Source: Gemmatimonadota bacterium (GTDB taxonomy: Bacteria; Gemmatimonadota; Gemmatimonadetes; Gemmatimonadales; Gemmatimonadaceae). Taken from it: a stretch of DNA of 52,810 nucleotides. The stretch spans positions 118,175 through 170,984 of the forward strand of contig PLCA01000007.1 in the NCBI GenBank assembly GCA_003134685.1, written 5' to 3'. Below are positions 46,032 through 52,810 of this stretch, piece after piece. Under the pieces are notes generated by a model. The model was not told the origin of the DNA and did no database searches. It was given only the letters and a program-made list of their open reading frames with translations. The translations under genes were made by a program, and so were the position numbers. Position 1 is the first letter of the stretch. Each line of letters opens with the position of its first letter.

Positions 46032-46589
46032 ATGAGAATGGCTCGCCTCATGTGCACGGCAGCGTTGGTCCCGGCTTTCATGGGGGCCCAGGGCCAGCAA
46101 CGACCCCTCTCCTATCACGGCTGGGCCCTTGGGATTTCGTTCGATAGCGCCACGAAACTCACCGAGGCGCAGATCGCCAGACCACTCGTATGCGTCGGAA
46201 TGGACACAAAGACGATGTTCTGCCAGACGGATCCTGGCGGACGGAACGCAAGTCTTTATTTCAGCCCGATGCCACGGCGCCTCGAAGAAATCCGGCTCAG
46301 CTTCCCAGTCGACCGACGTTTTTCCAGAGACTCCCTAAAGAGGTTTTTCACGACACAGTGGGGTCCTCCCATCCCTCGAGAGGTGCTCAGCACCGGATCG
46401 ACGTCGCCGAGGAGGGTCCGGCCGTCATCCGACGTCATTGGAAGCTGGGCGCGGGAGGGAACGGTATTCGGCATGGTCGCGGTTTCATCGCTCGACTCCG
46501 CGGCGAAGCTCTATATCTCCATCGCCAGCATGGATCGGCAGATCCGCCTCATGCTGGAGCAAGCCGACACGAGTCGCAAAACAAGATGA
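46032..46589 (+). CDS. Secreted hypothetical protein
   Basis: 185 aa from ATG 46032. A signal peptide of about 20 residues (MRMARLMCTAALVPAFMGAQG) precedes a mature domain with two cysteines and LYFSPMPRRLEEIRLSFPVDRRFSRDSLKR. No family recognised. Its stop overlaps the next gene's ATG (ATGA). The frame is open upstream, but that part lies antisense to the neighbouring small gene and is unlikely to be coding. Confidence 0.7.
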   Translation: MRMARLMCTAALVPAFMGAQGQQRPLSYHGWALGISFDSATKLTEAQIARPLVCVGMDTKTMFCQTDPGGRNASLYFSPMPRRLEEIRLSFPVDRRFSRDSLKRFFTTQWGPPIPREVLSTGSTSPRRVRPSSDVIGSWAREGTVFGMVAVSSLDSAAKLYISIASMDRQIRLMLEQADTSRKTR

Positions 46590-47128
46590 CCAATTTCCCC
46601 GACGCGATTTCGGTTCTCTCCGCGATGATCACACCCGCCGTGCTCATCTCGGCGTGCGGATCGCTCATCCTCGCGACTTCGGACAGGCTGAGCAAGGCGG
46701 TGACGCGCACCCGCGAGATTTCGAGCGCGTTGATCCCGCGTGCCGCCGACCAGCGACACGACGATCGTGAAGAAGAGCGGCGGATGCTGTTCGTTCAACT
46801 CGACTTCGTGACGACGCGATCGCGTTTGCTACAACGAGCGCTGTCGCGCCTGTACGCGGCGCTGGCGTTCTTCGTGGGCACGAGCGTGAGCATCGGACTG
46901 GTGGCGATAACGAGCTCGGCGTTCACTCTCGTTCCGATTGCGCTCGGGCTGATTGGCGCGGGGCTGCTCCTCTACGCCGCATTTCTCTTGATCAAGGAAT
47001 CCCGCTTCGCGCTCGCCGCGGTGAACGAGGAGATGGACTTCATGTGGAAGCGCGGAAAAGAATACGGCCCGCCCGATCTGGTCGAGAAGGGGATCAAGCG
47101 TGCGGGCTGGTTTGGGGGAGTGAAGTAG
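46586..47128 (+). CDS. DUF2721 family membrane protein
   Basis: 180 aa, ATG in an ATGA overlap. DUF2721 pattern: VLSAMITPAVLISACGSLILATSDRLSKAVTRTREI, a charged loop with LFVQLDFVTTRSRLLQRAL, and two further membrane helices (ALAFFVGTSVSIGLVAI and LVPIALGLIGAGLLLYAAFLLI) with VNEEMDF near the end. Function unknown. Followed by a strong bidirectional terminator. Confidence 0.85.
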   Translation: MTNFPDAISVLSAMITPAVLISACGSLILATSDRLSKAVTRTREISSALIPRAADQRHDDREEERRMLFVQLDFVTTRSRLLQRALSRLYAALAFFVGTSVSIGLVAITSSAFTLVPIALGLIGAGLLLYAAFLLIKESRFALAAVNEEMDFMWKRGKEYGPPDLVEKGIKRAGWFGGVK

Positions 47129-47210: not shown

Positions 47211-49706
47211 TCACCCGCACTCGCTGAATCCGCACACATGGCACTTGGCGCAACCTTCAGCCATCTCGAGCGACGATCCGCAGTCCGGGCACGTGCCGAT
47301 GAACGACTCGCTCCGATTCAGCGCATCGAAACGATACTGAGATTGCCCGCCCTCTCCAGCCACCGGAGTCGGCTTGGGCTCCGCCACTTCGTCGATAGAA
47401 GGAGCTAGAGGCGCGCTGCCAAGCAGCTCTTGCTGCACACCCTGCTTCTCACGCATCCACTTCTCGAGCGCAATACCTATTGCATCGGGAACAGACAGTA
47501 CCTTGTTGGGACCGAGTCCGATCGCCTTATCCGACGCAATACCGCGCAGCTGGCGATGCACTTCCCGAATCGGAATTCCGGATCTCAGCGCCAGCGAGAT
47601 CAGACGTCCCATTGCCTCAGCGTCTGCCATCGCTGCTCCACCGGCCTTGCCGAGGTTGATGAACACCTCGAATGGCTGGCCACGATCATCCTCGGTGATG
47701 TTGAGGAACATCGTGCCGAGTGGTGTCTCGATGCGCGTGGTGATGCCGCGCAGCGTATCTGGACGCGCTCTCTTGGCGCGGCGCTGGAGATTCTCGGCCT
47801 CCACGTCGAACACCGCCTGCTTGAGTCTCGTGTTCTCGGCCTCGAGCTCCGCAATCGTGCCGTGCAGCTCACCACGCTCGGCTCTCGCGTCGGCCTTGCC
47901 GTCGCGCTCGGCTTTCGCCTGCACGGTCGCTCCGGTCGAGAGAACCTGATTGTCGCGCGAGCCATCGCGGTACACCGTCACGCCCTTGCACTTGAGCGCG
48001 TAGGCGAGCTCGTAGATCTCGCGCACATCGTCGGGAGTGGTCGCGTGCGGGAAGTTGGTCGTCTTGGAGATCGCAGAATCGCAATTCTCCTGGAAGGCGG
48101 CCTGCATTCTGACGTGCCACTCGGGCGTGATGTCGTGCGCGGTGACAAATACGCGCTGCACCTGCCTGGGCACTTCGTCAAAGTGAATGTGACCTTCCCT
48201 TGCGATCTTCTCCATCAGCTCGTCGGAGTACCAGCCATCTTTCCTTGCGATCGCGACGAAATCTTCGTTCACGTCGGGCATCATCGCGCCCGCCTGATTC
48301 CGCATGAACGCAACGGCAAAAAGCGGCTCGATGCCCGAAGAGCAGCCTGCGATTATCGAGATGGTGCCGGTCGGAGCGATCGTGTTGACGTTGCAATTGC
48401 GCAGCAGCTGCATTGGCTTGACGCGCTTGCCATTGGCGTCGCGGGCGCACGTTTCGTCGGGGCCCCAGATCGATCTCGCCCACTCCGGGAACGGTCCGCG
48501 CTGGTCGGCGAGACGCTCGCTCTCGCGCTTCGACTCGACGTCCACGAACTTCTGAAGCTGGCGTCCGAACTCGACGCCCTCGATGCTACTGTAGGCGATT
48601 CCCAACCGAACTAGAGCATCGGCGAAGCCCATGACGCCGAATCCGATGCGCCGGATTCTCTTGGAGAGCGCGTCGATCTCGGGCAGGGGATACTTGTTGA
48701 CGTCGATGATGTTGTCGAGGAAGCGAACCGAGAGGTGGATGTCTCGCTTGAGAGCGTCCCAATCCATCTGCTCGTCCTTCACATAGTAGCCGACGTTGAT
48801 CGAGCCGAGGTTGCAGACGTCGTACGGGAGCAGCGGCTGCTCGCCGCACGGATTCGTCGCCTCATACTTTCCGACGTGCGGGACGGGATTGTAGCGGTTC
48901 GCTTCGTCTATGAAGAAGCAGCCCGGCTCGCCCGTTCTCCACGCGCCGTCGATCATCTTGTCCCAGACGGCGCGCGCGTCGAGCTGGCCGGTGACTTTGC
49001 CGCTGCTCGGGTCAATGAGGTCGTAGCTCGTGCCCGCCTTGACCGCTGCCATGAACTTGTCGGTGACGGCGACGGAAATATTGAAATTCGTGATCTGCGT
49101 CAGGTCTTCCTTGCAGGTAATGAAGTCCATGACGTCGGGATGATCCACGCGGAGAATTCCCATGTTGGCGCCGCGGCGCGTGCCGCCCTGCTTCACCGCA
49201 TCGGTCGACGCATCGTAAAGCTTCATGAACGACACCGGACCCGATGCGACGCCGGTCGTTGAGCGAACCATCGAGCCCTTGCCGCGCAGCTTCGAGAACC
49301 CGAAGCCTGTTCCGCCGCCGGACTGATGAATCAGCGCCATGGCGCGCAGCGTGTCGTAGATCCCATCGCGGCCGTTGGACAGAGCGTCCTCGACGGGAAG
49401 AACGAAGCACGCAGAGAGCTGACCGAGGGGGCGTCCCGCGTTCATTAGGGTCGGTGAGTTGGGCTCGAACCGACGCTCGACCATCAGGCGGTAGAAATTC
49501 TCCGCCATGGACGTGACCTCGCTGTCGCTTGCACCGTACCGGCGATCCGCTTCGGCAACCGTTCCCGCCACGCGCCAGAACATGTCTTCCGGCTGCTCCA
49601 CAGGTGTGCCCGTTGCGTCCTTGATCAGATAGCGTTTGCTGATCACGGTGCGCGCATTGTCATTCAATTGGGCTTCGCCCTGGGGCGGGACGGCAGGTAT
49701 GGGCAT
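47211..49706 (-). CDS. nrdJ: B12-dependent ribonucleoside-diphosphate reductase (class II)
   Basis: 831 aa. Conserved reductase blocks: [77 protein letters not shown] and [18 protein letters not shown]. The C-terminal part has a TSCPD-type domain and ends in a four-Cys cluster ([16 protein letters not shown]) that probably reduces the active site or binds zinc. A helical insert rich in Glu/Arg ([21 protein letters not shown]) separates the two parts. It makes deoxyribonucleotides without oxygen. GGAGAG lies 9 nt before the ATG. Confidence 0.95.
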
Positions 49707-50149: not shown

Positions 50150-52810
50150 TCAAAACGAAGCGCCAAAAGTCGCGTAAGCCTGCGCTACGCTCGCTCCGAG
50201 CTGCGCTCGATTGACCAGTGGAAACGCGAGTCCCAACCGAAGCCGAGCCTGCACATCGAGCTGTAGTCCGGTGTCGATATTGAGCTCTGCTCCGGCAGAA
50301 GTCATGGCCGGATTCCGGATATTCGCGGAGGTACAGAATCCGTTCGTGGTGTCGGCGCTCGCGGGACAGAACGCTCGACCGGTCTCGCCGAAAAGGGTCA
50401 GCGACATCCGATCGACGAAGACCGGGAAGTAGCGGAAGCCGCGCGATGGTGCGGCGAGCGGCGCACGATACTCGATCGCGGCCGAATACGCGCGAATTCC
50501 GCCCTCGGCTCCGGCGGGATATCCACGCACACCGAACGTTCGACGCTGCTGGCCAGCGGTAACACCGGGGAAGAGCTCGAGCGCCGTTCCACTGATTCCG
50601 CCGGCCGAAAAGAGGTCGGGACTTCCCTCATCGGTGATGCCGCCCGCGGCGCGAAGCGCGAGCACGTGGTGTGCAAAACCCGGCAGGTCGAGCGACTTGT
50701 ACGCCAACGTCGTTCCCACGACGCTGCGCGTGGCGCCGCCAGTCGTGCCTCCTCGCCAACGCTGACGTCCGGCAGCGCTGATGCTGATTCCATCCTCGGG
50801 CGAGATGCTCAGGCCCGGGCGCTGCGCGTTGGACCAGCCCGCCGACGCGATCAACGCCGGGTAGCTTTTGCTCTGCGAGTAGATCGACGACAGAAGCTGT
50901 AGCACTGTGTCGGGGCGAGTGGAGTAGGTGAGACCCTCGAGCTCTGCGCCGATCGAAGCGAGGGTGTAGGTTCGAAAACGCGGACGAATGAACGTCGCCT
51001 GTAGCGACACAATTCTCTCGCGCAATGTGAATCCGAACGGCGCCCTAGCGGCCCCGGTGGCCAGAGTGTCGTTCGCGTTGGAGAAGTTCTGCGATGCGTA
51101 CAGATCCAGCAGCGGCAGGCCGAATCCCGAATAGCGGTACCAGAGCCACGCGGAGTTTTGCGCCCATCGCGAATTGTGAAGCACCTCGACGAGATAGTCG
51201 TGGCGATCCACAATGTCGGAGCCGCTGGTGGAACCGCCCCATGACGTTCCGTTGTCTGTGGTGCTCTCGAGAACCGGACTCCAATAGCGCGGCAGGAGCG
51301 AAACCCACGGCGAATATTTCGTCGCGCGGGAGGTGTCGGACGCGCCAAGCGGCGCGAGCCCGGGCACATCAGCCAGGCAATTCGCGCAGCCAGAGCGTGG
51401 GCTCGTCGTGGTGCTGTCGGTGGCAACGCGAACGAGGGACGTGAACGGAGCGACGCCCAGATGAAATCCGTCGGCCCTGAAGAGCAGTGTCGCCAGCTGG
51501 CTTTGATCGGGCGACGCCTCTGGAGCGAATAATCCGGTGGACGCGCTGCTGATCCTGGCCACCGTGGGCGCGAAGGTGGTCACGTCCGCAACATAGATCT
51601 GCGGCGAGCCGCTTCGCTCGGATGAGAAATAGATGCGTGTCCCGTCAGAAGACCAGCTCGGACTCGAGTTGATTGCGTGGGTCGCGCCGAAGGAGTCGAT
51701 CATCTTCCCATCCGAACCGATGATGGCGATCTCGGATCTCCCGCGACTCTGCTTCACGGCCGCGATGCGCGAGCCATCGGGGGACCACCGCGGATCTGCC
51801 CACTGCACGTCGATGCTCGTGGGTGTGAGCGGCACGAGCGTGCGTCCGTCGCTCGAGAGCCGTACCAGCCTCGTCGTCGCCGGCTCGTCCTGAACCGCGA
51901 CGATCTCGCCGTCCACTCGCGCGTCCGGTGAGGTCAACCGAGCGCCGGTCGTGAGCCTGGTCTGCGATCCGTTTCTCTCGACGTAGAGATCGTTCCGGAT
52001 GTGGTATGGATCCAGGAAGTCGGGCTGCGAGAAGAGAATGCCACCGTCGGGCATTCTCACATTGGGACTCGTTCCGTTGCGCCGGCCGAGTCGCGTCTCG
52101 CGTCCCAAGAGACTGACCTGATATGCGGCGGGCATCTCGCGCCCGTTGTCGCCCGCGTACACCAGGGTCGTGTCGCTGAGCCAGCGCGGAAAGAGCGCGA
52201 CGCGTCCGTCGTTTGTGAGCTGGCGCCATCCCGGCATCACTTCGAATGGGCCCCGCACCTCGCGAGCCAGCGAGTCGCGCCAGTGCTCCCACGCCGTCTG
52301 GAACGACATCCCGAACGCGTTTCGCGACGTCAGCGTGAGAATGAAGGGAAGCGGAGTCTTCGCGCCATCCTCGACGAACCGGCGAATGCTCCCGGGGCCC
52401 TCCGTTCGCGACAGGTAGTCGAACAGCAGCGAGCCGTAGATGTAGATGACGTTGCCGCCGGGAAAGCGCGTCGTACCTGGTGACAACTCCTGGAGTGTAG
52501 GTAATTGATTGGCGAGCGCGGCCGCGCGCGCGGTCATCGAGTGTTCGGAGCTCTCCAGCCTGCCCACACCCGCCATTCGGGACTCGAAATAGACGGCGAG
52601 CCCCTCGAGCACCCAGCGCGGCTCGTACAGATTCGGAAAGAGCAGCGCATTCCTGCCGAAGATCGCCTGGCCAAAGCGCCAGATCCCACGCGAGCGGTCG
52701 AGGTGGAAAATGTGCGTGAGCTCGTGGGTCACGACGAGCGCGTTCCAGTCATCGTAGTTACGGAGACCCGATGCGTCTGTGGGCGGGTGCGCATAGACGA
52801 CGATGCGATT
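50150..52810 (-). CDS. Metallopeptidase / TolB-like propeller / outer-membrane barrel protein, N terminus cut
   Basis: At least 886 residues; the frame is open through the window edge at 52810, so the start lies outside. The N-terminal part carries a gluzincin motif, VTHELTHIFH (HExxH), with a glutamate in WVLEGLAVYFES about 40 residues later, as in M1/MA-like peptidases. The middle has TolB/PD40 propeller repeats (DPRWSPDGSRIAAV, SPSWSSDGTRIYFSSE, LFPRWLSDTTLVYAG). The C-terminal 400 residues are strand-rich, with surface-antigen features and a terminal aromatic residue (ATFGASF). It probably sits in the outer membrane with the peptidase and propeller facing one side. Substrate unknown. Confidence 0.82.
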   Translation of the reverse strand, partial: NRIVVYAHPPTDASGLRNYDDWNALVVTHELTHIFHLDRSRGIWRFGQAIFGRNALLFPNLYEPRWVLEGLAVYFESRMAGVGRLESSEHSMTARAAALANQLPTLQELSPGTTRFPGGNVIYIYGSLLFDYLSRTEGPGSIRRFVEDGAKTPLPFILTLTSRNAFGMSFQTAWEHWRDSLAREVRGPFEVMPGWRQLTNDGRVALFPRWLSDTTLVYAGDNGREMPAAYQVSLLGRETRLGRRNGTSPNVRMPDGGILFSQPDFLDPYHIRNDLYVERNGSQTRLTTGARLTSPDARVDGEIVAVQDEPATTRLVRLSSDGRTLVPLTPTSIDVQWADPRWSPDGSRIAAVKQSRGRSEIAIIGSDGKMIDSFGATHAINSSPSWSSDGTRIYFSSERSGSPQIYVADVTTFAPTVARISSASTGLFAPEASPDQSQLATLLFRADGFHLGVAPFTSLVRVATDSTTTSPRSGCANCLADVPGLAPLGASDTSRATKYSPWVSLLPRYWSPVLESTTDNGTSWGGSTSGSDIVDRHDYLVEVLHNSRWAQNSAWLWYRYSGFGLPLLDLYASQNFSNANDTLATGAARAPFGFTLRERIVSLQATFIRPRFRTYTLASIGAELEGLTYSTRPDTVLQLLSSIYSQSKSYPALIASAGWSNAQRPGLSISPEDGISISAAGRQRWRGGTTGGATRSVVGTTLAYKSLDLPGFAHHVLALRAAGGITDEGSPDLFSAGGISGTALELFPGVTAGQQRRTFGVRGYPAGAEGGIRAYSAAIEYRAPLAAPSRGFRYFPVFVDRMSLTLFGETGRAFCPASADTTNGFCTSANIRNPAMTSAGAELNIDTGLQLDVQARLRLGLAFPLVNRAQLGASVAQAYATFGASF

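Follow-up and report, generated by a model that had tools for sequence, protein, structure and literature searches.

Can a single polypeptide join a zinc peptidase, a TolB-like propeller and an outer-membrane barrel, and if so, where in the cell envelope would such an enzyme act? This question is raised by a gene at the end of the 52,810-nucleotide stretch of DNA analyzed here (the window), which spans C3:118175–170984 and comes from a soil bacterium of the Gemmatimonadota with a genome of 3.6 Mb. The part of the gene within the window occupies positions 50150–52810 on the minus strand, read from 52810 down to 50150, and consists of an open frame of 886 codons plus a stop, without internal stop codons. 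The encoded protein ends in ...YATFGASF. A first-pass annotation of this locus had placed a HExxH gluzincin domain, TolB-like repeats and a C-terminal barrel with a terminal Phe in one chain. All three were found, the order from N to C terminus being signal peptide, gluzincin peptidase, six-bladed TolB-like propeller and a 16-strand barrel ending in Phe.

The 5' end of the gene extends past the window, across an unsized assembly gap of 2 N (L002 4986–4987) that adjoins the window edge at 52810 and interrupts the gene. Beyond the gap, a GTG start at L002:5154 opens a stretch of 55 residues that starts like a signal peptide and continues with ...LRTRHFRVHFTPAVEEEARRAAVNA. These residues comprise the signal peptide and the start of the peptidase domain. 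The orthologue at locus L033, 88% identical to the window protein, reads through the gap region without a break, and comparison with it places approximately 38 residues (about 114 bases) within the gap. The full gene, the retrieval of which had been called for in the first-pass annotation, was hence obtained in part: the 55 N-terminal residues were recovered, while the approximately 38 that follow lie within the 2-N gap. The first 93 residues of the protein consequently fall outside the window or inside the gap, and a full length of about 975 residues was estimated from relatives, with the gap left unfilled. A frameshift or pseudogene was considered and rejected, as the break consists of N and the frame runs on unbroken there in close relatives. 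Judged by eye, nearly all full-length homologues begin with a signal-peptide-like sequence. In the closest sibling genome (L038; G014:C90), the gene is spread over two overlapping frames of 616 and 480 amino acids, pointing to a frameshift or an assembly error in the propeller region.

Searches of Pfam, NCBIfam and PDB sequences with the window protein matched the propeller alone, and the peptidase and the barrel therefore required family alignments and fold prediction. Structure prediction, also proposed at first pass, gave a confident three-domain AlphaFold2 model of the full-length L033 orthologue (mean pLDDT 88, pTM 0.88). Residue conservation was counted over 59 aligned full-length sequences of 35–88% identity.

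The C-terminal region (50153–51301, minus strand; last residue F886) had been described simply as a barrel, and a soluble C-terminus had been named as the outcome that would speak against it. Instead, a 16-strand barrel is predicted, and it is specifically of the Omp85/BamA type. DSSP assigns 16 long strands between residues 604 and 976 of the L033 model, and residues 599–979 align with BamA of Deinococcus radiodurans (Z 23.4, rmsd 4.7, 320 aligned residues); the fold of Escherichia coli BamA is matched as well. The Omp85 signatures have been defined as (V/I)RG(F/Y) in loop 6 and (F/G)xDxG in strand 13 (PMC4490367). In the window protein, the former reads VRGY (50519–50530, minus strand), with RG conserved in 59/59 sequences, V in 54/59 and F/Y in 54/59. 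The latter reads FGETG (50378–50392, minus strand), in which D is replaced by E. Across the alignment this motif has F in 58 of the 59 sequences, D in 54 and E in 5, and G (39) or A (20) at its last position; the family as a whole thus carries the strand-13 signature, the window protein having a conservative variant of it. The Pfam Omp85 model matches 12 of 45 homologous barrels (best E 8.9e-7) and does not match the window protein itself, and it is fold and motifs that carry the assignment. When the barrel profile was searched against PDB sequences, only a weak BamA-like match emerged (E 0.09). No POTRA domain precedes the barrel in the model, in contrast to the POTRA-bearing Omp85 proteins BamA, TamA and FhaC; the peptidase and propeller are found there instead, with a short linker to the barrel. 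The possibility that this gene encodes the only Omp85 protein of the genome was rejected, since seven Omp85 matches were found.

Directly before the barrel lies a six-bladed TolB-like beta-propeller (51437–52249, minus strand), detected in the window protein by Pfam PD40 (E 5.5e-15) and by the NCBIfam TolB model (E 3.1e-23, residues 340–462). In the L033 model, residues 281–529 superimpose on TolB with Z 26.1 and an rmsd of 2.3 over 238 aligned residues. The linker between propeller and barrel (51302–51436, minus strand) is less confidently modeled at first, with pLDDT 62–73 over three initial blocks of ten residues in the matching stretch and 85–92 thereafter. The likeness to TolB, a periplasmic protein, lies in the propeller fold. 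However, TolB is soluble and part of Tol-Pal, whereas the propeller described here is joined to a barrel, and a better TolB-like gene is present separately in the same genome (at C11), for which reason a stand-alone TolB was rejected. TolB-like propeller stretches abound in the genome, with 25 matches to the TolB model, including genes in which the propeller has other partners.

The N-terminal domain, of which the window encodes the C-terminal part (52253–52810, minus strand), is a predicted gluzincin, a zinc peptidase of the MA clan. Its HELTH motif at residues 29–33 (52712–52726, minus strand) supplies the putative zinc ligands H29 and H33 and the catalytic E30. The predicted third ligand, E69, lies in the motif W-x-x-E-G-L-A (52604–52606, minus strand), the ligand context in the window protein being HELTH...WVLEGLA, and Y123 in Y-x-Y-G (52442–52444, minus strand) is a candidate transition-state tyrosine by analogy with M1 peptidases. 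In the first-pass annotation, the peptidase claim was made to depend on conservation of the zinc ligands among homologues. Both histidines, E69 and the catalytic glutamate are invariant in all 59 sequences, as is Y123, conservation of the sort that an active enzyme should display. In a profile comparison with the genome's own M1 proteins, E69 aligned with the third-ligand Glu in WLNEG and Y123 with the tyrosine of YPKG, which is catalytic in M1; with an hhalign probability of 52% and E 1.5e-4, this alignment is supportive rather than strong.

Folded by itself with AlphaFold2 from 58 aligned sequences, the peptidase domain reached a mean pLDDT of 86. In Foldseek and VIA-align comparisons, the best fold match was M30 lugdulysin (Z 16.4, rmsd 3.4, 224 aligned residues), followed by many M1 aminopeptidases (Z 14–16); a TFIID subunit also appears among the M1-fold matches. 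Pfam Peptidase_MA_2 was matched by 28 of 58 homologues at E 1 or better (best E 2.7e-5), and a PDB sequence search with the peptidase profile matched no gluzincin. The domain therefore has the features of clan MA(E), namely HExxH with a downstream Glu ligand in 59/59 sequences and a zincin fold at Z 15–16. With M30 and M1 it shares this fold, the HExxH motif, the glutamate third ligand and the YxxG tyrosine. It differs from them in its spacing, HExxH-x35-E (H126 to E162 in L033 numbering) as against x18 in M1, and in lacking any significant sequence similarity to a gluzincin of solved structure. For M30 (hyicolysin/lugdulysin), the fold match likewise comes without a sequence match, and the fold scores, tied within about 1 Z, favor neither M30 nor M1.

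The architecture is widely distributed. All 61 genomes sampled across the genus, family and order contain some match to the window protein, many of them through the propeller only. In 100 of 150 genomes drawn from the phylum, a match at E 1e-30 to a 971-position model of the protein was obtained, and most of these 100 matches cover nearly all 971 positions; some weaker ones, to the peptidase-propeller part alone, are probably paralogues. Full-length homologues are found across the phylum at 34–88% identity, the orthologues in the sample from genus, family and order reaching down to about 31–34%, and their retention of invariant catalytic and barrel motifs rules out a chance architecture. The named loci are nearly all from Gemmatimonadota, with two labeled Vicinamibacterales and Acidobacteria (L107 and L109), and more relatives with the same motifs were found in the phylum of L107, the Acidobacteriota. 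Moreover, a paralogue of the same architecture is encoded outside the window in the source genome (C3:81355–84597; L123:3356–6598). Its 1081-residue frame carries the motifs HEMVH...WFIEGMAEY, matches PD40 at E 6e-28 and scores 38.6 bits with Omp85, above the cut-off. Of 61 genomes in a phylum-wide sample, 60 hold a match to this paralogue at E 1e-60. The peptidase-propeller-Omp85 fusion is thus common in the phylum rather than singular.

The gene neighborhood offers a lead on function. Upstream, outside the window, lies a cluster comprising murQ (N-acetylmuramic acid 6-phosphate etherase), anmK (anhydro-MurNAc kinase), a NagZ-like gene (glycoside hydrolase family 3 beta-N-acetylhexosaminidase) and the muropeptide transporter gene ampG, all four assigned by NCBIfam, followed by a PP2C phosphatase gene on the other strand and then an Amidase_3 gene. 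The latter encodes an N-acetylmuramoyl-L-alanine amidase, and its stop overlaps the start of the window gene by four bases. Of 71 named loci for which 900 or more upstream bases are available, 65 have an Amidase_3 gene immediately upstream in the same orientation, -1 to 303 bases away; 12 of these 65 have the -1 distance, that is, the overlap seen in the source genome. In 26/47 loci, one or more additional recycling genes are located within about 5.7 kb. These counts include only genes detectable by tblastn with the proteins of the source genome. The tie to the amidase is not universal, as no amidase was found next door in four Gemmatimonas-related loci (L087, L090, L093 and L102) or beside the Acidobacteriota relatives examined. 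By eye, FHA-domain-like and kinase-like sequence is present on the opposite strand in those four loci. Downstream of the window gene, a vitamin B12-dependent ribonucleotide reductase is encoded (47211–49706, minus strand; NCBIfam 1137 bits), as it is in 30 of the 36 loci with enough sequence. Because it is several hundred bases away in the source genome, it was given no functional weight. A DUF2721 membrane-protein gene (46190–47128, plus strand) is convergent with the ribonucleotide reductase gene and occupies the same place in several close relatives. At best, the gene neighborhood indicates co-regulation, and it does not imply a shared substrate.

Taken together, we lean toward an outer-membrane-anchored protease that faces the periplasm and acts at the interface between outer membrane and peptidoglycan. 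In such a protein, a gluzincin zinc peptidase and a TolB-like propeller would replace the periplasmic POTRA domains of an Omp85 protein. The signal peptide would direct the chain to the periplasm, and the barrel would enter the outer membrane with its N-terminal side inward, leaving propeller and peptidase hanging in the periplasm; this orientation is suggested because an even-stranded barrel keeps its N-terminal side periplasmic. The propeller may dock a partner or substrate and offer peptides to the peptidase. In Gemmatimonadota, the gene and that of a periplasmic peptidoglycan amidase would be co-expressed, in many cases with translational coupling, and the peptidase may cut an envelope protein or the peptides freed by the amidase, serving amidase-run wall turnover. 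Given such co-expression with an amidase in a recycling cluster, it is most likely the outer membrane-peptidoglycan interface that the proteolysis serves. A more specific version is put forward only tentatively: the protein may be a dedicated protease, in which the Omp85 barrel holds the zincin over the wall and translational coupling to the amidase brings two reactions to one site, the removal of stem peptides from glycan and the cleavage of either an envelope protein or the peptides released. The functional suggestion made at first pass fares accordingly: that substrates are cleaved at the outer membrane may fairly be inferred, while coupling to barrel assembly or export is one option only, the gene context pointing at least as much to peptidoglycan remodeling or recycling.

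The nearest rival, which we consider rather unlikely, is quality control of the kind performed by BepA. The peptidase would then degrade stalled or misfolded outer-membrane proteins, and the BamB/TolB-like propeller and the barrel would dock to the BAM complex or form a private assembly site. BepA (M48) is indeed a periplasmic zinc peptidase that works on the BAM complex and hence at an Omp85 protein, but it is separate, soluble, from another zinc peptidase family and not fused to a barrel (PMC8423444). Omp85 barrels in general assemble or translocate proteins, and the authors of the 2014 survey likened propeller-Omp85 proteins to a BamA-BamB fusion (Heinz and Lithgow 2014; PMC4104836). However, POTRA domains are absent here, the genome holds three much stronger Omp85 matches that could act as BamA-like proteins, and the conserved neighbors tested include no BAM or outer-membrane protein biogenesis gene, being peptidoglycan genes and the ribonucleotide reductase instead.

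It is improbable that the peptidase domain serves as a non-catalytic substrate- or ligand-binding domain within an outer-membrane element with a structural or sensing role. Peptidase folds without catalytic function do occur in other families, and the TFIID subunit among the M1-fold matches is in keeping with this, but invariance of the catalytic and zinc residues in 59/59 sequences at 35–88% identity is what an active enzyme would display. Least probable is a surface-exposed or exported protease of the type Vd kind, in which the barrel would move its own peptidase-propeller part across the outer membrane: protease secretion is frequent in soil bacteria, and the export idea raised at first pass is of the same kind as the original proposal for the patatin-Omp85 protein PlpD, but a folded propeller and zincin are unlikely to pass through an Omp85 barrel, the conserved neighbors work on peptidoglycan in the periplasm and cytoplasm, and the enzyme domain of PlpD, first thought to be exported, was later shown to be periplasmic (PMC11116518).

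With the protease at the outer membrane-peptidoglycan interface as the preferred reading, the protein can be placed among known systems. The Omp85/TpsB superfamily is defined by its barrel, and a WD40-Omp85 subfamily with a TolB-like propeller and no assigned function was described in 2014 (Heinz and Lithgow 2014; PMC4104836). Like that subfamily, the window protein has a TolB-like propeller directly N-terminal to an Omp85 barrel, without POTRA domains. It is a member of the Omp85 superfamily related to the WD40-Omp85 subfamily, with a gluzincin domain in front. The main text of PMC4104836 names no peptidase in the subfamily, some members of which may share the architecture; its 'Metallo' group is a separate group with PF00149. 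PlpD, which has an enzyme domain N-terminal to an Omp85 barrel, sets a precedent for a periplasmic enzyme in such a fusion, but it is a lipase with a POTRA domain and no propeller, whereas the window protein has a peptidase and a propeller; the same paper calls Omp85 subfamilies such as WD40-Omp85 not well characterized (PMC11116518). The statement in the first-pass annotation that no characterized example is known therefore holds for the peptidase-propeller-Omp85 protein in the literature searched, mostly non-subscription papers, while its two halves, the propeller-Omp85 subfamily (PMC4104836) and the enzyme-Omp85 fusion (PlpD; PMC11116518), had already been described. The architecture is real and well supported, and the lead from gene context is new.

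Enzyme-Omp85 fusions challenge the view of Omp85 proteins as assembly or translocation factors only. The peptidase-bearing form is widespread in Gemmatimonadota and present in some Acidobacteriota, its active-site residues are conserved and its gene order ties it to peptidoglycan recycling, making the function of the subfamily a question that can be tested with a few point mutants. If the reading as an amidase-coupled protease is true, Omp85 proteins would do more than assemble and translocate proteins, and an ATP-free connection from the outer membrane to the wall would exist in a phylum with little envelope genetics.

A tblastn search of plasmids with the window protein gave propeller-region matches only. 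On Salinibacter ruber plasmid pSR116 (L174:2411–4309), a peptidase-propeller relative of the paralogue is encoded that lacks the barrel and is annotated as 'basic secretory protein-like protein'. A split arrangement, with the barrel encoded alongside, was rejected for Salinibacter, the next gene being serine carboxypeptidase-like. The existence of this barrel-less gene suggests that the peptidase-propeller module can, in some cases, do without a membrane anchor.
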